DNA of 64,000 bases from Sulfurospirillum diekertiae (lineage in GTDB: Bacteria; Campylobacterota; Campylobacteria; Campylobacterales; Sulfurospirillaceae). Both the position numbers and the translations under genes were made by a program. The notes beneath the pieces were generated by a model, which saw nothing but the letters and a program-made list of their open reading frames with translations, was not told the DNA's origin and did not search any database. The DNA is taken from NCBI RefSeq assembly GCF_011769985.2, contig NZ_CP039734.2:558001-622000 (forward strand). The letters run 5' to 3'. Positions 36,148 through 61,785 of the stretch are shown piece after piece; the first letter of the stretch is position 1, and every line of letters starts with the position of its first letter.

Positions 36148-36503
36148 CCATCATCAAAGCCTTGCGCTTTGTGTTTATCCTTTTTATAACTCCCTCGATA
36201 TTTCTCTTTCTCCAGTAAATTAGCCTCTTTTAAGAGACGTTTGTGCGTCTCTTCAATGTCTATCTCTTCGAGGTTAACAATGCTATTAGAAACCAAGGTA
36301 ACGTAATTTTGCAATAAATTGGTATAGGTAGAATCAAGTCTTACAGGTTCAACCTTTTGCAATGTTTTAAGCCCTTTCTCTGCACGCTTGACAAACAAAA
36401 GAAAATCAAAATTTTCATTTTTAAGCGCATTGACACAGCTGCCCATAAAGCGTTCCAATGCTCTAATGTATTTAACCCGTGCGTCTTTATCGTTAATGTT
36501 CAT
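36141..36503 (-). CDS. hypothetical protein (120 aa)
   Basis: Not recognised. A charged, helical protein with no signal peptide or membrane segment; the C-terminal 30 residues are strongly basic (KEKYRGSYKKDKHK). Its 3' end overlaps the dus end by 7 nt (convergent). It starts 4 nt inside the AEC remnant, so the two were an operon. Confidence 0.6.
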   Translation of the reverse strand: MNINDKDARVKYIRALERFMGSCVNALKNENFDFLLFVKRAEKGLKTLQKVEPVRLDSTYTNLLQNYVTLVSNSIVNLEEIDIEETHKRLLKEANLLEKEKYRGSYKKDKHKAQGFDDGY

Positions 36504-37428
36504 GGTAAATTGATGATATTAAGATAGTGTAAAAGGTTGCTGATAAGAATAAAAAAGGGTATGAAAATCAGCGATGTAAAAAAAACAAGTACGGTGACAT
36601 CCAAAGGTCTGCACTCATACAATGCCGCTAAATTGACGTTGGTAACAGCCAGAGGCACAACCAGTTCAATAAAAATAAGTGTGGCAACCATGGGTTCTAA
36701 ATTAAGCAAGCCAAACAAGATAACGCCTGCAATCAGAGGGGTAATAATGAACTTAATAAGGCTTACATGTAAAAGAAGTTTGGTGTTAATATCGCGCAAT
36801 TTAATATTGTAAAGGTACATACCAAAAATGACCAGTTGAATAACCATCGTGCAGTATGCGCCCATTTCCAAAGGCTTTTGCATCGCAGGATGAAGATGAA
36901 TGTCGAAAATATTCATAAAAAGTGCAATGCTAGCAAACCAGATGACCGGTAATTTCAATGTTAAAAAGTGATTGTTTGATGCTAAAGTTACCTCTGGAGT
37001 AGAAAAAGACACCGAGGGTATAAACGATAAAAACATTGGTGATGTTGATCATACTCATGTATAAAATAGAGTCATCGCCAAAAAGTGCGATACCTAAAGG
37101 AATACCAAGATTGCCCGTATTGCCAATGATAACACAGATCGTGATGATGGATTTTTCTTTAATGTCCTCTTTAAAGAAAATCAATGCAATCACGGAACTG
37201 ATGAGGACACACATTAAAGAGATAGGCTAAATACCAAAAAGGCGCTTGAAGCAGTGAAAAATCAATGGGTCGGCTTGAGAGTCCCCAGAAAGAGAGCATT
37301 GGCTGTAAAAAGTAGATGGAAAGAAGGATCATTCCTTTTTCATTCATCTCCTCTTTAAGCATTCGTTTTGCCATAAAGCCTAGCAAAATGAAGGCGTAAA
37401 TAGACAAAATGGAAATAGCTATGGTCAT
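36500..37428 (-). pseudogene. AEC (auxin efflux carrier) family transporter, two frameshifts
   Basis: Three overlapping pieces in different frames together match the intact AEC protein at 43980-44903 almost end to end. Piece 1 (37428-37171) ends after LLQAPFWYLAYLF; comparison with LLQVPFYYVLIS in the paralog shows about 22 extra nt near 37217-37238. Piece 2 (37214-36930) carries the IGNTGNLGIPLGIALFG motif and leaves frame near 36950, where a 2-nt loss (or 1-nt gain) replaces VKLPVIW. Piece 3 (37036-36500) completes the C-terminal membrane helices. Family members are 10-TM exporters. Confidence 0.85.
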
Positions 37429-38740: not shown

Positions 38741-38756
38741 TGGCATAACTTTTGCA
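38741..38756 (+). promoter_or_regulatory. sigma-54 promoter of the MoxR/VWA operon
   Basis: TTGGCATAACTTTTGCATAA: GG at 38742-38743, exactly ten bases, GC at 38754-38755. The form TGGCAT...TTGCA matches the general (nif/glnA-like) consensus TGGCAC-N5-TTGCA, better than the flagellar form. It lies 42 nt before the first gene, with one TTACATGTAA copy between (38770). Confidence 0.8.
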
Positions 38757-38797
38757 TAACATCTTACGTTTACATGTAAAGATTTTAAAGGGTGATA

Positions 38798-38986
38798 ATG
38801 GGAAAATTTGAAGCAAAAATAAAAGAAGAGGTGATGCAAAATCTCTTCAACGACACCACCAAAATGTATGAAATGATCGAAACCCGTTTTATTCTGGATG
38901 ATGCCTCTCGTAGCGCACTCATTGCACTGTGCAACCAGTTTAACAATGACCTCTCTTTGTTGCTCAAAGAGAGTAAACTTGCGTAA
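38798..38986 (+). CDS. small helical protein, first gene of the MoxR/VWA operon
   Basis: 62 aa, starting MGKFEAKIKEEVMQNLF. Not recognised; amphipathic, mostly helical, one Cys. ATG follows AAAGGG. It is the first gene after the sigma-54 promoter and ends 9 nt before the MoxR gene, so it is likely co-expressed and perhaps an adaptor. Confidence 0.65.
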   Translation: MGKFEAKIKEEVMQNLFNDTTKMYEMIETRFILDDASRSALIALCNQFNNDLSLLLKESKLA

Positions 38987-38995
38987 GGTTGTGTG

Positions 38996-40003
38996 ATGAT
39001 CACACCTGCCATTGGAACAACTGAACTTTACAAACAACTCAGTGTTTTACTCAAAACCGATACGCCTGTTTTTTTGCACGGGAGCCCTGGCATTGGGAAA
39101 TCCTACATCGTCAATGACATCGCCAAACAAGAGGGGCTTGAAATCATGGATGTGCGCCTCAGCCAACTCGACGCGGTGGATTTACGGGGAATCCCCACCA
39201 TCAAAGAGCATCAAACCGTTTGGATGCCGCCTGTTTTTTTGCCCACTGATGCCAAGAGTGAGGGCATTTTGTTTTTAGATGAGCTCAACTCTGCACCGCT
39301 TTCGGTGCAAGCGGCGATTTATCAGCTGGTACTGGATCGTAAAATTGGCGAATATAGCCTTCCCAAAGGGTGGCGCATCGTTTGTGCGGGCAATAAAATC
39401 AATGACAAAGGCATTGTCTTTAAACTCCCTTCACCTTTAAGTAACCGCATGGTGCATCTGGTGCTAGAGGCAAAATTTGATGACTTTAAACTTTGGGCGA
39501 TGAAACATGATGTGCATCATTTTATCATCGGTTTTTTAGCCTTTCGCCCCGATCTTTTAAGTTCTGAAATTCCCTCTTATACCGAGACAAATCCTGCTTT
39601 TTGCTCTCCACGAGCGTGGAATATGCTCTCCCATATCCTTAAAAATACCACTGACATTCACAGTATTCATCCCATTATTTACGGCACCATCGGCTATGCC
39701 GCGGGGGTTGAGTTTATTGCGTTTGTCAATGTCTATAAAACACTGCCCGATGTTGACGCTATCTTAGCGGGCGAGACACTAGGAATCCCCAATGAGCCCA
39801 GTGCGTTGTATGCGCTCTGCGCCGCACTGATTGAACGCTACACGGTGCTTTCTCAAGCGGAACATCTTTTGGCGTACTCTAAACATCTGCCGACTGAGTT
39901 TGCGGTGATGCTCATCAAAGACTTGATTATCAAAGATGAAGAGATCGCCACGCTAGAGAGTTTTGATGCATGGATGGAGCGTTATGGCGACTACATCATC
40001 TGA
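38996..40003 (+). CDS. MoxR-type AAA+ ATPase
   Basis: 335 aa: Walker A GSPGIGKSYIVND (about residues 29-41), Walker B GILFLDELNSAP and a sensor region AGNKINDKG, then the C-terminal lid. MoxR proteins, paired with VWA-domain partners, act as chaperones that activate metalloenzymes (NirQ/NorD, CbbQ/CbbO, RavA/ViaA are known pairs). Here the partner is the next gene. AAGG lies 7 nt before the chosen ATG. Confidence 0.9.
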   Translation: MITPAIGTTELYKQLSVLLKTDTPVFLHGSPGIGKSYIVNDIAKQEGLEIMDVRLSQLDAVDLRGIPTIKEHQTVWMPPVFLPTDAKSEGILFLDELNSAPLSVQAAIYQLVLDRKIGEYSLPKGWRIVCAGNKINDKGIVFKLPSPLSNRMVHLVLEAKFDDFKLWAMKHDVHHFIIGFLAFRPDLLSSEIPSYTETNPAFCSPRAWNMLSHILKNTTDIHSIHPIIYGTIGYAAGVEFIAFVNVYKTLPDVDAILAGETLGIPNEPSALYALCAALIERYTVLSQAEHLLAYSKHLPTEFAVMLIKDLIIKDEEIATLESFDAWMERYGDYII

Positions 40004-41180
40004 GTTGCACAAAGCGTTGTTTGAGAGAATACGCATTCATTTTCTCTTTAACCATCCTTTTTTGTCAGTCCTTGCGCTCTCCGTTCCGACACGCTATATC
40101 ACGAATGCCAAAAGTGCGTTTCAAACGGATGGCTTTTCGCTGAGCATTGATGAAGAAAAACTCTCACGTTACAGCGAAGAGGAGATTATTTATCTCTACG
40201 CACACACGTTGTTGCATATTGTTTTAAAGCACCCAGCACGTCGAAAAGCGCGTGAAGAACTCGTTTGGAATCAAAGTTGTGACGTGGTTATCAACCTTAT
40301 TTTAAGCGAGTTTGACCACGTGGGTGTAATGCCAAGTGATGAGATTTTCGATGCCGATATGAGCGGTCTCAGCGTGGAAGAGGTGTACGAGATCCTTTAC
40401 AAAGAGCAAGAGAAACAGCCCAGTTCTGAGAAAGATGAAAACGAAAAGCAGAAGTCGTTTATTTACGATGAAACCAAGCACGACCTTGAAAGCTCCAACG
40501 AGAGTCTGCAAAGCTCCGAGGCGAAGGAAAAGCTTGATAATATCATCATTCAAGCACTCAGCATTGCCAAGCAAGCGACGAAAGCCTACGACAGTTTGCG
40601 CATTGAAATCGACACTTTACTCAAACCAAACATTGACCTCTACGATGTTCTTAAAGAGTTTTTGATTACAGCACTTTTTGAAAAAACCGTGACGTATAAC
40701 AGGCCTAATCGTAAGTATTTTCAACAAGGCATTTACCTGCCCAGTACGCACAAAAGTAAGGAGCAGTTGGAGCTTATTATCGCGATTGACAGCTCTGGAA
40801 GCGTGAGTTTAGACGAGTATCAAACCTTTTTGGGCATCGTCAAAGAGGTGTGCGAATCGTTTTACGAATACAGCGTGACGCTGTTGCCCTTTGATTTACA
40901 TGTAAAAGAAGAGCTCATCGTCAGTTTTGATAGTTTCAATCCAATCAACTCTGAAAATCTCTTTATTCCCAAAAGCGATGGCGGGACGAATTTTAATGCC
41001 GTTTTGGATTTTATCGATACCCATTATGCTATTCGAAGCGAGCAGTTGTTGATGGTACTTAGCGATGGCGAGTTTGACATTGGGCGTTCTTTGGTGTGCG
41101 AGACGCTTTTTGTTTTGAGTCAGAAAAAAAATGGTGCAAAGTTTGAGCGGTATGGAAGAGTTATCCAATTTAACTTATAA
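39984..41180 (+). CDS. VWA-domain protein with DUF2201 putative metallopeptidase region
   Basis: 398 aa. N-terminal half resembles DUF2201, with a HTLLHIVLKHPARR helix (HxxxH-like, possible metal site) at about residues 75-90; an acidic/Ser linker (about 145-180); a C-terminal VWA-like domain with complete MIDAS motif DSSGS, GGTNF and LSDGEFDIG. Starts 20 nt inside the MoxR gene. It is the presumed substrate-binding partner of the AAA+ ring. One LHVK palindrome (40896). Confidence 0.85.
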   Translation: MATTSSELHKALFERIRIHFLFNHPFLSVLALSVPTRYITNAKSAFQTDGFSLSIDEEKLSRYSEEEIIYLYAHTLLHIVLKHPARRKAREELVWNQSCDVVINLILSEFDHVGVMPSDEIFDADMSGLSVEEVYEILYKEQEKQPSSEKDENEKQKSFIYDETKHDLESSNESLQSSEAKEKLDNIIIQALSIAKQATKAYDSLRIEIDTLLKPNIDLYDVLKEFLITALFEKTVTYNRPNRKYFQQGIYLPSTHKSKEQLELIIAIDSSGSVSLDEYQTFLGIVKEVCESFYEYSVTLLPFDLHVKEELIVSFDSFNPINSENLFIPKSDGGTNFNAVLDFIDTHYAIRSEQLLMVLSDGEFDIGRSLVCETLFVLSQKKNGAKFERYGRVIQFNL

Positions 41181-41859
41181 AGAGGAAGTCGATGCCCTCA
41201 AAGACGCGCCCGATTTTGAAGCGTTGGGCGATGCGCGCTACATTCATCATAGCGACATGGAAGCGAGATTGTATTGGGCATTTTGCAGACCGAGTGGCTC
41301 GCATCCAGACCAGATTAGCGATGCTGAACCGCTTGTTTCCATTATGGCATTCAATCATTCACGCTTAGGTGCCTTAGAGCGATTTGAGCGCTTGCATCCT
41401 GATGTGATTCGCAACGAAGAGCTTCGCGTGAAGATTAAAAATCGAACGCGCATGCTTTTTCGCGCCCTTGTCGATAGTGACTTTAGCGAACTCAATGCGG
41501 TTTTAGAACGCGTGCCTATCTTTTTACCCGTAGCGATGGATCAGCTCAAAAATGGGCGCAAATGGAATGACATCGAAGCCAATTTAGTTGAAGCATCTCG
41601 GTTCATTCGCACCGCCGAAGCGCTTTTAGATGAGGTGGCTTGGGAAGCTCTTTTTCTCAAACTCAAAGTCATTGAAGAGAGTTCGGTGGATGATCTCAAA
41701 GCGTATTTACAGTATGCCATTGAGTACAAGAGAGAAATTGATGCACGTTTGTTAACGTACATTCACGATGAAACTTTAACGTGGATTGCACAGAGTTCTT
41801 TGCATCTTTTGCAAAAAAAAGCGATGGAAAAATTAACACAGGCATTAATAACGCGATAA
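41131..41859 (+). CDS. helical protein, paralog 1 of MoxR-operon pair
   Basis: 242 aa (235 if ATG 41152 is used). Unrecognised. Its second half aligns by eye with the next protein: KIKNRTRMLFRALVDSDFSEL against KIKKRTATLFQVLIDGDLKEL, and HLLQKKAMEKLTQ against HLLQQKIIEKELLK. Predicted all-helical and acidic, no membrane segment. It overlaps the VWA gene by 50 nt. A scaffold or substrate-adaptor role for the AAA+ machine is inference. Confidence 0.7.
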   Translation: MVQSLSGMEELSNLTYKEEVDALKDAPDFEALGDARYIHHSDMEARLYWAFCRPSGSHPDQISDAEPLVSIMAFNHSRLGALERFERLHPDVIRNEELRVKIKNRTRMLFRALVDSDFSELNAVLERVPIFLPVAMDQLKNGRKWNDIEANLVEASRFIRTAEALLDEVAWEALFLKLKVIEESSVDDLKAYLQYAIEYKREIDARLLTYIHDETLTWIAQSSLHLLQKKAMEKLTQALITR

Positions 41860-41872
41860 AATACATAAAAAA

Positions 41873-41957
41873 GCACCAAAGGTGCGCGGGCACTCCGCCG
41901 AGGAGAACATAGCGTTAGCGTAGCTTTTAGAGCTTGGCTCTAAAGGCGTATAAAGGA
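41873..41957 (+). repeat. three-hairpin intergenic element, copy B (within MoxR operon)
   Basis: First hairpin GCACC-AAA-GGTGC (41873-41885), then CTCC-GCCGA-GGAG, GCGTTAGCGTAG, a 22-nt second hairpin (arms CTTT-AGAGC/GCTCTAAAG with one bulged T, 41924-41945), then GCGTATAAAGG and the start codon of the next gene 9 nt later. AAAGG of the element is that gene's ribosome-binding site, so folding could change translation. Same architecture as copies at 4.9 and 24.95 kb; the closest match is copy A. Confidence 0.55.
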
Positions 41958-41965
41958 TTGAAATT

Positions 41966-42529
41966 ATGGACGAAGCGTTTGATCTGAAGCATTTTGAGAC
42001 GTTTTTAGGCGAATCAAACAGTGAAGGTGGCCATTGGGATAAGATCAAAAAGCGTACGGCAACCCTGTTTCAAGTGCTTATTGATGGAGATTTAAAAGAG
42101 TTGGTGTTTGTACTGAAGCATTATCCGCAATATACGGAACTGGTGTGTGAGCATTTTCGTTATTTGTACAACTATTCCGAACAGAGTGCGGACATCTTTG
42201 CGGCATCGAAGCTTTTGTACATGAGTGAAGCGTACCACCAAAAGCAATTTGTGCGCAATCTTTTGCGCAAACTTGAAAAGATCGAAACGTATGAGCTTTC
42301 ACAGATTAAAACCTTGATTCATTTTTTGGTAGAGCATCAAGAGCGCTTGCATCCGATCATCATCAGTTACTATAAAGCGGAGATTGTAGCGCATTTGAGA
42401 AGTGGCAATTACCATCTGTTACAGCAAAAAATCATCGAAAAAGAGCTTTTAAAATTACATGTAAAGAGCGATTTTGACTTTGGTGCGAAAGATAGAGACG
42501 CCTCGTTAGACATTCCTTACATGGTTTAG
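41966..42529 (+). CDS. helical protein, paralog 2 of MoxR-operon pair
   Basis: 187 aa, related to the 242-aa protein upstream but lacking its N-terminal ~75 residues. Helical, no membrane segments. AAAGG ribosome-binding site belongs to hairpin element B. One LHVK palindrome (42455). The stop is 13 nt before the sigma-54 promoter of the nifO-like gene, so the operon probably ends here or reads on. Confidence 0.7.
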   Translation: MDEAFDLKHFETFLGESNSEGGHWDKIKKRTATLFQVLIDGDLKELVFVLKHYPQYTELVCEHFRYLYNYSEQSADIFAASKLLYMSEAYHQKQFVRNLLRKLEKIETYELSQIKTLIHFLVEHQERLHPIIISYYKAEIVAHLRSGNYHLLQQKIIEKELLKLHVKSDFDFGAKDRDASLDIPYMV

Positions 42530-42542
42530 GCTACAATCAGTA

Positions 42543-42558
42543 TGGCATGGCATTTGCA
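42543..42558 (+). promoter_or_regulatory. sigma-54 promoter of the nifO-like gene
   Basis: ATGGCATGGCATTTGCATA: GG at 42544-42545, exactly ten bases, then GC at 42556-42557. The TGGCAT...TTGCA pattern is nearly identical to the promoter at 38741. It lies 30 nt before the ATG and inside the tail of the operon spacer. No obvious NifA TGT-N10-ACA site is visible upstream. Confidence 0.82.
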
Positions 42559-42587: not shown

Positions 42588-43013
42588 ATGTTTTCAACGA
42601 CGCCAAAGCAGGTCATCTTTTACGAAAAAATAGGTTGTAGCGGCAATGCACGTCAAAAAGCACTTTTACGTGAATACGGTGTTTCATTTGAAGTGCGAAG
42701 CCTTTTGGATACGCCTTGGGATGTACCCACATTGGAGTCTTTTTTTCACGGATTAACTCCCCAAGAGATGCTCAACCCTTTTGCGCCACAACTCAAAGAG
42801 GGAACGTTTACATTAGAAGATTACACCAAAGAGAGTCTTATCGAAAAGATGGTGAGCGAGCCTATCTTAATCCGTCGGCCACTCTTACAAATAGGTGATG
42901 TCAAGCTCTGCGGTTTCGATATTCCACGGCTAAATTTGCTTTTACATGTAAAGATGCCAACACCCCAAAATATCAACGCCTGTTTAAGCAGTGACGCATG
43001 CAGCAATGCTTAG
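42588..43013 (+). CDS. nifO: ArsC/Spx-family thioredoxin-fold protein, NifO-like (nitrogenase-associated)
   Basis: 141 aa thioredoxin-fold protein: IFYEKIGCSGNARQKALLREYG (given here as IFYEKIGCSGNARQ), then RRPLLQIGDVKLCGFD. Arsenate reductases of this fold have Cys12 in CxxxxxR; here the single CSGNARQ Cys and the TPQEMLNPFAPQLKEG region match the nitrogenase-associated subfamily (NifO). ATG has AAAGGAG 5 nt upstream, and a sigma-54 promoter precedes it. A role in oxygen or metal handling for nitrogenase is possible; ordinary arsenate reduction is not excluded. Confidence 0.7.
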   Translation: MFSTTPKQVIFYEKIGCSGNARQKALLREYGVSFEVRSLLDTPWDVPTLESFFHGLTPQEMLNPFAPQLKEGTFTLEDYTKESLIEKMVSEPILIRRPLLQIGDVKLCGFDIPRLNLLLHVKMPTPQNINACLSSDACSNA

Positions 43014-43297
43014 AGTATATCTGTAAAGAGTTTGAAAAGGTCAAAGACTATTTGCATGCACCAACTCCTACCAAAGAGCTGATTATTAACAATCTTTTTG
43101 CCAATTTTATGCACTGCTTTTCGGAGTACCCATTCGAAAAGAAGCGTTATCCCAAAGAGTTTTTAGAAAGTGCCAATCTTTACAATGCAGGCGATGCGGT
43201 CATGCTCAAACGTTTTGAAGATATTGGAATGCGTTATTTGCTGTTGAGTGATTTTTACGATTATGTAAAAATCACTCATTTGTACCGTAAAGTCTAG
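42998..43297 (+). CDS. hypothetical protein (99 aa), after nifO-like
   Basis: Not recognised. A small helical protein, 16-nt overlap with the nifO-like gene, so translationally coupled. It contains several acidic/aromatic residues (FEKVKDYLHAP, RYLLLSDFYDYVK) and no Cys-rich motif. It converges with the carbonic-anhydrase-like gene, overlapping by 4 nt. Confidence 0.6.
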   Translation: MQQCLEYICKEFEKVKDYLHAPTPTKELIINNLFANFMHCFSEYPFEKKRYPKEFLESANLYNAGDAVMLKRFEDIGMRYLLLSDFYDYVKITHLYRKV

Positions 43298-58910: not shown

Positions 58911-60230
58911 GTGGAAAAAACCGTGAATGTGAAGAAAAAAGATTGGATGCACTATACGATAAAAAGCTTGGCCTTTTGGGTTATTTTTGGCATTATCGCA
59001 GGTATTGCTCTTGGTATGGTTGATCCTAAACTGGCAACGCAAGCAAAGCCAGGAATTGATTGGTTTATTCAAGCGTTGAAATGGCTTGTTGGACCGATTA
59101 TCTTCTTAACCATTATTTCAGGTATTGTTGGACTTGAAAGTCTTAAAGAAGTTGGTTCAATTGGATTAAAAGCATTAATCTATTTTGAAATCGTAAGTAC
59201 CTTTGCGTTGGCAATCGGTGTACTTTTTGGAAATATGTTTGGACCTGGACATGGAATGAACCTTTCCGTTGATTCGCTAGATCCTAAAAGTGTTGCTAAA
59301 TTTACAAGCACGGGTGACGTTGGGTCTATATGGTCTATCCTCAAAAATGCAGTTCCAAGTGACCCTATTACACCATTTCTGAATGGTAATACACTTCAAG
59401 TATTAACGATGGCATTGGTTTTAGCCATTTTGATCGCTGCTTTTGGTGGAAAACATAAAGCTACTATTTTGAAACCACTTGAAATTGTTCAAAACTTTTT
59501 CTTCAAAATCTTAACGATTTTGATGTGGTTAAGCCCTATCGCATCTTTTAGTGCGATGGCATTTTTGATCGGTAAATTTGGTATTGCTTCTTTGATCAAT
59601 ATGGCAAGTTTATTGGGTGTTATGGCTATCTCTGTACTTGCATTTGTTTTTGGTGTCCTTGGTATTATTATGGCAATCTTCAAAATCAATATTTTCAAAT
59701 TTATGCGCTTTATCGCTAAAGAGGTATTGATTGTATTTGCAACGTCATCCAGTGAATCTGCATTGGCTCCATTGATGCGTCGTCTAGAAGCCGCTGGTGT
59801 AAGCAGAGGAACAACAGGTCTTGTTATTCCAACGGGGTATTCATTTAACCTTGATTGTACGAACATCTATCTTTCACTCTCCATTATCTTTATTTCTCAA
59901 GCGTTCAATATTCCATTGACCCTTGGTGAAGAGTTAAGTATCATCTTCATTTTGATGGTTACCTCAAAAGGTGCTGTAGGTGTAACAGGTTCTGGTTTTA
60001 TCGTTCTTGCAGGAACTTTGTCTGCCATGGGTGGCGCAATTCCTGTGGTAACGGTTGCGGTACTTCTTGGTGTTGATAAATTCATGAGCGAAATGAGAGC
60101 GGTAGGTAACCTTTGTGGTAATGCGGTTGCTGCTGTTGTTGTTGGTGCTTGGGATAAACAGATCGATATGGATAAATTCAGATACGCATTAGATCATCCA
60201 GAGAGTGTTGAAGACACAATTCCTGGTTAA
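58911..60230 (+). CDS. dicarboxylate/amino-acid:cation symporter (copy 1)
   Basis: 439 aa DAACS transporter (GltP/DctA fold), with SSSESALAPLMRRLEAAG, PTGYSFNLDCTNIYLSLS and TSKGAVGVTGSGFIV. GTG start, AAAGGA upstream. Imports C4-dicarboxylates or glutamate/aspartate. Next to a paralog 227 nt downstream. A terminator with a GGTCAATGA stem follows. Confidence 0.85.
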   Translation: MEKTVNVKKKDWMHYTIKSLAFWVIFGIIAGIALGMVDPKLATQAKPGIDWFIQALKWLVGPIIFLTIISGIVGLESLKEVGSIGLKALIYFEIVSTFALAIGVLFGNMFGPGHGMNLSVDSLDPKSVAKFTSTGDVGSIWSILKNAVPSDPITPFLNGNTLQVLTMALVLAILIAAFGGKHKATILKPLEIVQNFFFKILTILMWLSPIASFSAMAFLIGKFGIASLINMASLLGVMAISVLAFVFGVLGIIMAIFKINIFKFMRFIAKEVLIVFATSSSESALAPLMRRLEAAGVSRGTTGLVIPTGYSFNLDCTNIYLSLSIIFISQAFNIPLTLGEELSIIFILMVTSKGAVGVTGSGFIVLAGTLSAMGGAIPVVTVAVLLGVDKFMSEMRAVGNLCGNAVAAVVVGAWDKQIDMDKFRYALDHPESVEDTIPG

Positions 60231-60243
60231 TCAATTTTTATAC

Positions 60244-60290
60244 GGTCAATGAGGTGTTACAATTACTTCATTGACCTCTTTCTTTTTAAT
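60244..60290 (+). terminator. terminator after first symporter gene
   Basis: Stem GGTCAATGA/TCATTGACC (60244-60252 with 60268-60276), loop 15 nt, then TCTTTCTTTTT. Separates the two paralogous symporters. Confidence 0.8.
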
Positions 60291-60456
60291 ATAATTTCCC
60301 CCCTTTTCTTTAAAAAATCTCATTAAAATCCCTTTTCGTATGCCATAATAAATCATATATCATAAAACACTTTGCAAATCACATCTTAAGTTTTCGTAGA
60401 AATTACGCATCGGTTATAGAGCTTAGACTGGTTTTAAAGTATCAAAAGGGTCTTCG

Positions 60457-61785
60457 TTGAACAGAGTGAGCAAGAAAAAGGGAAGTAAGAAAGATTGGAA
60501 GCACTATACCGTTAAAAGTTTGGCTTTTTGGGTGATCGTCGCTATTATCGCAGGTGTGACCTTTGGTGTGATGGATCCAGAGAATGCTATCAAGGCAAAA
60601 CCTGGAATTGACTGGTTTATTCAAGTTTTGAAATGGCTTGTTGGACCGATTATCTTTTTAACGATTATTACGGGTATTGTTGGGCTTGAAAGCCTTAAAG
60701 AAGTTGGCTCCATTGGTATTAAAGCATTTATCTATTTTGAGATAGTGAGTACATTTGCTCTTGCCATTGGTGTTTTATTTGGTAATATTCTCCGCCCGGG
60801 GGAGGGAATGAATCTCTCCATTGAATCCTTAGACGCTTCTAGTATTGAAAGTTTTACGCAGGTAAAACAGGAGGTAGGTTCAGCATGGAGCATTCTCAGA
60901 CATGCCATTCCTAATGATCCTATTTCACCATTTTTACACGGGGATACGCTCCAAGTGCTCACAATGGCACTTTTCTTTGCAATCCTTCTTTCTGCTTTTG
61001 GTGGAAAACATAAAATCACGATTTTAAAACCTTTAGAAAAAGCGCAAAACTTTTTCTTTAAAATTTTAACATTGATCATGTGGTCAAGCCCTATTGCAAG
61101 CTTTAGTGCTATGGCATTTTTGATTGGTAAGTTTGGACTATCATCACTCCTGGGTATGGCAAATTTATTGGCCGTTATGTTCGTTTCGGTTCTTGCATTT
61201 ACCTTTGGCGTGCTAGGTGTTATTTTATGGTTTTATAAAATTAATGTTTTCAAATTTATGCGTTACATTGCAAAAGAAGTCTTAATTGTCTTTGCAACTT
61301 CTTCAAGTGAAGCAGCGCTCGCTCCGCTAATGAGAAGGCTTGAGGCTGCGGGTGTTAGTAGAGGAACAACAGGGCTTGTTATTCCAACAGGTTACTCATT
61401 TAACCTTGGGTGTACCAATATTTATCTTGCACTTTCTATTATCTTTCTGTCTCAAGCATTCAATGTGCCTTTGACTTTGAGTGAGCAGATGAGCATCATT
61501 CTTATTTTGATGGTGACATCAAAAGGGGCGGTAGGGGTTACGGGTTCAGGCATTATTATCCTTGCGGGAACTTTGTCGGCAATGGGTGGTGCGATCCCTG
61601 TCGCAACGGTTGCAGTTTTGCTCGGAGTGGATAAATTTATGAGTGAAATGAGAGCTGTTGGTAACCTTTGTGGTAACGCTGTTGCCACTGTTTTTGTTGG
61701 CGTTTGGGACAAGCAGATTGACATGAAAAAATTTAAACATGCATTGGATAACCCTGATAGTATTGATGATGGGATTCCTAGTTAA
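60457..61785 (+). CDS. dicarboxylate/amino-acid:cation symporter (copy 2)
   Basis: 442 aa, close paralog of the previous gene; most residues are identical by eye, including SSSEAALAPLMRRLEAAG and PTGYSFNLGCTNIYLALS. The Asp-to-Gly change in LDC/LGC lies in a substrate-binding region, so substrates may differ. TTG start (AAAGGG upstream) or GTG 60466. Ends with a strong terminator. Confidence 0.85.
   Translation: MNRVSKKKGSKKDWKHYTVKSLAFWVIVAIIAGVTFGVMDPENAIKAKPGIDWFIQVLKWLVGPIIFLTIITGIVGLESLKEVGSIGIKAFIYFEIVSTFALAIGVLFGNILRPGEGMNLSIESLDASSIESFTQVKQEVGSAWSILRHAIPNDPISPFLHGDTLQVLTMALFFAILLSAFGGKHKITILKPLEKAQNFFFKILTLIMWSSPIASFSAMAFLIGKFGLSSLLGMANLLAVMFVSVLAFTFGVLGVILWFYKINVFKFMRYIAKEVLIVFATSSSEAALAPLMRRLEAAGVSRGTTGLVIPTGYSFNLGCTNIYLALSIIFLSQAFNVPLTLSEQMSIILILMVTSKGAVGVTGSGIIILAGTLSAMGGAIPVATVAVLLGVDKFMSEMRAVGNLCGNAVATVFVGVWDKQIDMKKFKHALDNPDSIDDGIPS

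Follow-up and report, generated by a model that had tools for sequence, protein, structure and literature searches.

A MoxR/VWA system with its own helical protein family that probably helps build or protect nitrogenase in Campylobacterota

Introduction

Nitric oxide reductase, Rubisco, CO dehydrogenase, and respiratory complexes are all served by known MoxR/VWA machines. In one of these, NorQD, a finger of the VWA protein is lodged in the pore of MoxR, and as ATP is turned over the adaptor twists and opens the client for metal (PMC13036017, PMC9976466). A second pair, CoxDE, acts at a Mo/Cu site (PMC4240915). On the side of nitrogen fixation, NifQ is the Mo donor (PMC11605450), and NifO in Azotobacter has been tied to Mo allocation and distribution (PMC5249018). 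No nitrogenase-serving MoxR/VWA machine is described in the open-licence literature searched.

The window analyzed here, a stretch of 64,000 nucleotides from Sulfurospirillum diekertiae, contains five same-strand genes 3′ of a −24/−12 promoter element that encode such a pair together with three helical proteins. The system probably helps build or protect nitrogenase and appears to be undescribed, the former because within Campylobacterota it is confined to genomes with nif genes. Searches of open-licence full texts on MoxR or VWA proteins together with nitrogenase or nif genes found no description of it, in agreement with an earlier sequence-only reading that knew of no system of this composition, and one published Campylobacterales genome study gives a nif gene list without it. 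The MoxR/VWA chaperone class is thus known, while a nitrogen-fixation-specific form with its own helical family appears to be undescribed.

Organization of the Operon and Its Products

The features of the locus are collected in Table 1. All five reading frames proposed by the sequence-only reading (a 62-aa protein, a MoxR ATPase, a DUF2201/VWA protein, and two helical proteins) are present.

Table 1. Coordinates of the operon, its adjoining features, and a decayed counterpart in another genome (window positions unless a locus is named)
Feature	Position	Strand	Remarks
Sigma-54 (−24/−12) promoter TGGCATAACTTTTGCA	38741..38756	+	57 bases 5′ of first ATG; score 16/16
62-aa helical protein	38798..38986	+	no Pfam/NCBIfam family
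MoxR-class AAA+ ATPase, 335 aa	38996..40003	+	AAA_5, E = 3e-7
DUF2201_N + DUF2201 VWA protein, 398 aa	39984..41180	+	DUF2201_N, 1e-28; DUF2201, 9e-7
Helical protein 1 (hel1, "hel242"), 235 aa from conserved start	41152..41859	+	no family
Interspersed repeat between the hel1 and hel2 genes, outside the system	41868..41959		19 genome places match
Helical protein 2 (hel2, "hel187"), 187 aa	41966..42529	+	homologous to hel1
Second sigma-54 promoter TGGCATGGCATTTGCA, 5′ of nifO-like gene	42543..42558	+	exact pattern match
NifO-like ArsC-family protein	42588..43013	+	TIGR01616, E = 4e-29, 101 bits, below 109 cut-off
99-aa unnamed protein, overlaps nifO-like gene	42998..43297	+	no family
Decaying nif accessory cluster of genome G256	L203 (G256:C1:1413000-1429000)		frame changes and truncations throughout

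The MoxR-class ATPase retains its Walker A (GSPGIGKS), Walker B (ILFLDE), and sensor-1 (AGN) motifs, and its nearest solved chains are midasin (1e-16, a partial match) and NorQ (9e-5). The MIDAS of the VWA protein, described as intact from the outset, is complete, with DxSxS, T, and D invariant across 17 homologues. Instead of HExxH, every aligned homologue carries HTLLH or a similar motif. Since the catalytic glutamate is absent from all aligned relatives, peptidase activity is not expected of the VWA protein, and a metallopeptidase role for DUF2201 was rejected. The profile of the VWA protein finds no solved relative, an NCBIfam search with 17 family members returns no match, and the similarity of the VWA domain to VWA_CoxE is weak (E = 0.0035; 17.2 bits, below the cut-off of 26.4).

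The 62-aa protein is kept just 5′ of moxR in part of the family, with 39–56% identity in other families. The start of hel1 was set by its orthologues; a longer open reading frame begins at 41131. AlphaFold2 models hel1 with a mean pLDDT of 94. The kinship of the two larger helical proteins, suspected earlier, is borne out by profile comparison (hhalign probability 99.7%, E = 9e-27, 159 columns): hel2 corresponds to the C-terminal two thirds of hel1, which has an additional N-terminal part, and the C terminus of hel2 is a strongly conserved tail, A-x-DRD-x5-IPYM. Neither protein matches Pfam or NCBIfam; among 44 homologues of hel1 scanned against Pfam, there is only one weak, isolated match. 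Fold searches of the helical proteins found no relative in the PDB with Foldseek (best E 0.22 and 0.77) or in BFVD (best E 0.27), and the best VIA-align Z of 7.1 falls inside the range expected of helical models.

The repeat between hel1 and hel2 is ~90–100 bp long and is missing at the corresponding spot in genomes G022 and G023. Relatives of the 99-aa protein that overlaps the nifO-like gene adjoin nif accessory operons in other families.

Three further observations concern the window at large. The palindrome TTTACATGTAAA (for example at 38769-38780, 40895-40906, and 42941-42952) has 29 matches with at most one mismatch versus 0.5 expected; Sulfurospirillum loci carry it at ~60–550 copies per Mb, and 267 kb from other families contain none. 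Only 16 of the 28 copies of its 10-base core lie in open reading frames, though these cover >90% of the window. A permease-like gene at 36500-37428 is divided among three overlapping reading frames and forms a single 309-aa frame in a genome of the same species (L105:5706-6635), which suggests either a frameshifted gene or a sequencing error. Two adjoining, closely similar transporter genes at 58911-61785 (439 and 442 aa) are apparently a tandem duplication.

Promoters and Sigma-54 Control

The promoter of the operon, first described as near-perfect, is in fact perfect. Exact matches to TGGCAY-N5-TTGCW number 18 in the 2.78 Mb genome versus one for the reversed control pattern, and for this reason the element TGGCATAACTTTTGCA at 38741 is not a chance occurrence. 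Two of the 18 matches lie at this locus, one 5′ of the MoxR/VWA operon and the other, TGGCATGGCATTTGCA, 5′ of the adjacent nifO-like gene, which is consequently under the same promoter type, as had been claimed. The other Sulfurospirillum copies of the operon that were examined also have a −24/−12 element in front, and that of nifO scores at least 14/16 near −39 to −46 in most Sulfurospirillum copies. The claim of sigma-54 control therefore stands for Sulfurospirillum and fails beyond it: the promoter is kept only among the Sulfurospirillum copies and is not found before most other orthologues, so that sigma-54 control was rejected as a defining trait of the system.

Within the window, no NifA upstream site TGT-N10-ACA lies in the 1500 bases 5′ of moxR. 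The genome's own nifH likewise has none, and this consensus may therefore not apply in Sulfurospirillum. Its nifH carries a weaker GG-N10-GC element that is common to the nine Sulfurospirillum nifH loci with a located start. The genome has genes for NifA-type activators, one of which lies ~37 kb from nifH.

Co-occurrence with Nitrogen Fixation

In S. diekertiae, nifHDK lie ~490 kb from the operon (nifD and nifK being named by eye from sequence). In a sample of 397 Campylobacterota genomes, orthologues of the VWA protein (at least 37% identity) are found in 32, spread over 12 genera and four families. The hel1 profile finds exactly these 32 genomes plus one, G256, with broken remnants, and hel2 is found in 27 of the 32.

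The co-occurrence with nif that the sequence-only reading had put forward as a check is strong. Either nifH or nifQ is present in all 32 genomes with the system and in 43 of the 365 others (p = 1e-26). Taken by itself, nifH is found in 31 of these genomes. In the remaining one, G411, nifQ is present and the operon lies on a short contig together with flavodiiron and NifQ genes, so the missing nifH is likely an assembly gap. As related genomes are not independent, two reduced tests were performed, and the association persists both at the level of genera (12 of 12 nif-positive, p = 7e-7) and within a single genus, g13 (9 of 9, p = 3e-5). Genomes with only distant DUF2201 paralogues, which served as a control, show no association with nif (odds ratio 0.97). 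On plasmids, no helical protein is found, and the VWA protein is represented among the matches listed only at ~22–27% identity.

The 43 nif-positive genomes without the system, among them most Sulfurospirillum, indicate that it is accessory and that nitrogenase can mature without it. Almost every nif-positive genome has nifQ, with or without the system, so nifQ does not need the system and failed as a discriminator between the two groups.

Genome G256, in which neither nifH nor nifQ is matched, retains a cluster of nifA, SagB, ferredoxin, flavodiiron protein, moxR, VWA, and hel1 genes that is broken throughout. Such decay, seen in one genome, is what relaxed selection after a loss of nitrogen fixation would produce. 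An association of the system with nitrogen fixation as such is very probable.

Gene Neighborhoods

A hel1-pattern scan of 84,980 prokaryotic genomes returned 51 loci, all from Campylobacterota; three of them have records that are generic ("bacterium") or misnamed, with neighborhoods of the same type. The conserved core consists of MoxR, the VWA protein, and hel1; the genes for the 62-aa protein and hel2 often lie elsewhere or are absent. The supposition that the five genes are conserved together thus holds for the moxR/VWA/hel1 core, and the five-gene composition is not fixed. At one locus (L128), moxR and the VWA gene are fused into a single reading frame of 738 aa.

Most loci have nifQ upstream and/or nifO downstream of the core. 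Counted over the 51 loci, nifQ is present in 30, nifO in 31, and nifA in 19, and nifA and nifT often adjoin. The fullest arrangement is that of Sulfurimonas and Sulfuricurvum, which begins with nifT, a divergent nifA, a redoxin gene, often an ankyrin gene, and a SagB-type nitroreductase gene; continues with genes for a ~105-aa protein, a 2Fe-2S ferredoxin, and a flavodiiron protein, followed by nifQ; and ends with moxR, VWA, hel1, an 80-aa HTH-like protein, and nifO. Many loci share the order flavodiiron protein, nifQ, moxR, VWA, hel1, HTH-like gene, nifO. In Arcobacteraceae and Sulfurospirillum, hel2 and/or nifO with the 99-aa gene come after the core or lie nearby, and in Arcobacteraceae a hemerythrin gene often lies 5′ of the core. 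In another locus type, the neighbors of the core are nifB, a homocitrate-synthase-like (nifV) gene, and ferredoxin genes.

In Sulfurospirillum genomes without the system, nifO and the 99-aa gene occupy the corresponding chromosomal position and have the same genes on either side; the five genes are therefore a removable unit there. In one locus (L117:7264-10062, genome G034), an rpoN gene encoding Sigma54 domains lies directly 5′ of nifQ and nifO. A second, distant MoxR/DUF2201 pair (~44%/22% identity) occurs in the region of the nif-linked pair in loci L089, L093, L094, L097, L153, L160, L162, L166, and L170.

Proposed Function

The sequence-only reading held that the operon might mature or protect nitrogenase or another metalloenzyme. 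Co-occurrence, placement in nif operons, and the decay in G256 sustain the link to nitrogenase; between maturation and protection, sequence does not decide. The preferred reading, with a probability of roughly 0.45, is that the system may be a diazotrophy-dedicated AAA+ remodeling chaperone for molybdenum/FeMo-cofactor maturation of nitrogenase. By analogy with NorQD, MoxR would form an ATP-driven hexamer and the DUF2201/VWA protein would be its adaptor, holding the target via the MIDAS. Together with its paralogue hel2, hel1 would be a third component that matches the motor to the client. The most likely client would belong to the molybdenum/FeMo-cofactor line of nitrogenase (NifQ, NifEN, or apo-NifDK), and its remodeling would admit metal or cofactor, in the way known from NorQD and nitric oxide reductase.

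Several observations speak for maturation. With nifQ and nifO as neighbors, the locus points to a supply of molybdenum; hel1 and the VWA orthologue share identical genome sets; and a MoxR–VWA gene fusion exists. In addition, MoxR/VWA pairs already known insert metals, as do NorQD (PMC13036017, PMC9976466) and, at a Mo/Cu site, CoxDE (PMC4240915). Against it, the redoxin, flavodiiron protein, and hemerythrin encoded in the same stretches suit protection equally.

Protection or repair is the main rival, although a rather unlikely one. Here the motor would restore or shield nitrogenase, or a partner of it, upon damage or inhibition by oxygen, NO, or reactive species. The same stretches hold genes for redoxin (21 loci), flavodiiron protein (29), SagB-type nitroreductase (21), 2Fe-2S ferredoxin (10), and hemerythrin (6), and an accessory distribution suits a condition-dependent role. 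The core itself, however, is directly flanked by nifQ, the HTH-like gene, and nifO rather than by redox genes, with the flavodiiron gene next but one.

The linkage of nifO (31 of the 51 loci) and nifA (19), with the tie of Azotobacter NifO to Mo distribution (PMC5249018), would also suit a regulatory system that controls nitrogenase activity, the sharing of Mo with other molybdoenzymes (with NifO), or NifA/sigma-54. Yet characterized MoxR/VWA pairs work on enzyme complexes, and the five proteins contain no regulatory domain in Pfam or NCBIfam, which makes regulation improbable. Less probable still is that the system serves another enzyme, one that only accompanies nif in this phylum, with the flavodiiron protein and the SagB-like enzyme as examples: their genes are frequent neighbors, but neither adjoins the Sulfurospirillum copies or most of those in Arcobacteraceae, where nifO often does. 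A conflict (defense) system of the ternary type, an architecture in which a third component joins MoxR and vWA (PMC7159879), is highly improbable and was rejected, given that PADLOC matches none of the five proteins, that Pfam and PADLOC reveal no third component, effector, or variable domain in the helical proteins, and that the tie to nif genomes is strict.

Should the preferred maturation reading hold in its full form, the operon would encode the first nitrogenase-dedicated AAA+/VWA motor, with a new helical client-adaptor family, which opens an assembly protein for molybdenum/FeMo-cofactor transfer; this stronger statement is put forward tentatively. To our knowledge, an ATP-driven mechanical opening step is absent from the model pathways of nitrogenase assembly. 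If true, a motor-driven step in the maturation or repair of nitrogenase would be new biochemistry, and the system would be a candidate part for making nitrogenase work in other hosts. The nif association is specific enough for single-deletion tests.

Comparison with Known Systems

Among the closest described systems is NorQ–NorD, which serves the insertion of non-haem iron in nitric oxide reductase. Shared with it is a MoxR-class ATPase gene adjoining that of a VWA partner with an intact MIDAS, and NorQ is one of the few solved chains that the ATPase matches significantly. The present system differs in that the partner is a DUF2201 protein and not of the NorD family, in its third, helical component, and in its neighbors, which are nif and not nor genes. 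CoxD–CoxE is likewise a MoxR-like and VWA pair and serves a molybdenum-containing enzyme (PMC4240915), but its VWA protein belongs to a different family, and the stretches read here have a nif context and hold no cox genes. RavA–ViaA and CbbQ–CbbO resemble the system in that they, too, are MoxR/VWA chaperones with an accessory role for metabolic enzyme complexes; no family match to either was found, and their clients are respiratory complexes and Rubisco. The general DUF2201/MoxR pairs of Campylobacterota (44%/22% identity) have the same domain make-up and sometimes occupy the same region; unlike the present system, they are not associated with nif. With the nifB-fdxN-nifO-nifQ operon of Azotobacter, the loci have in common that nifO and nifQ occur together, there for the supply of Mo to FeMo-co (PMC5249018, PMC11605450). 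What sets the Sulfurimonas-type operons apart is that moxR, VWA, hel1, and the HTH-like gene stand between nifQ and nifO.
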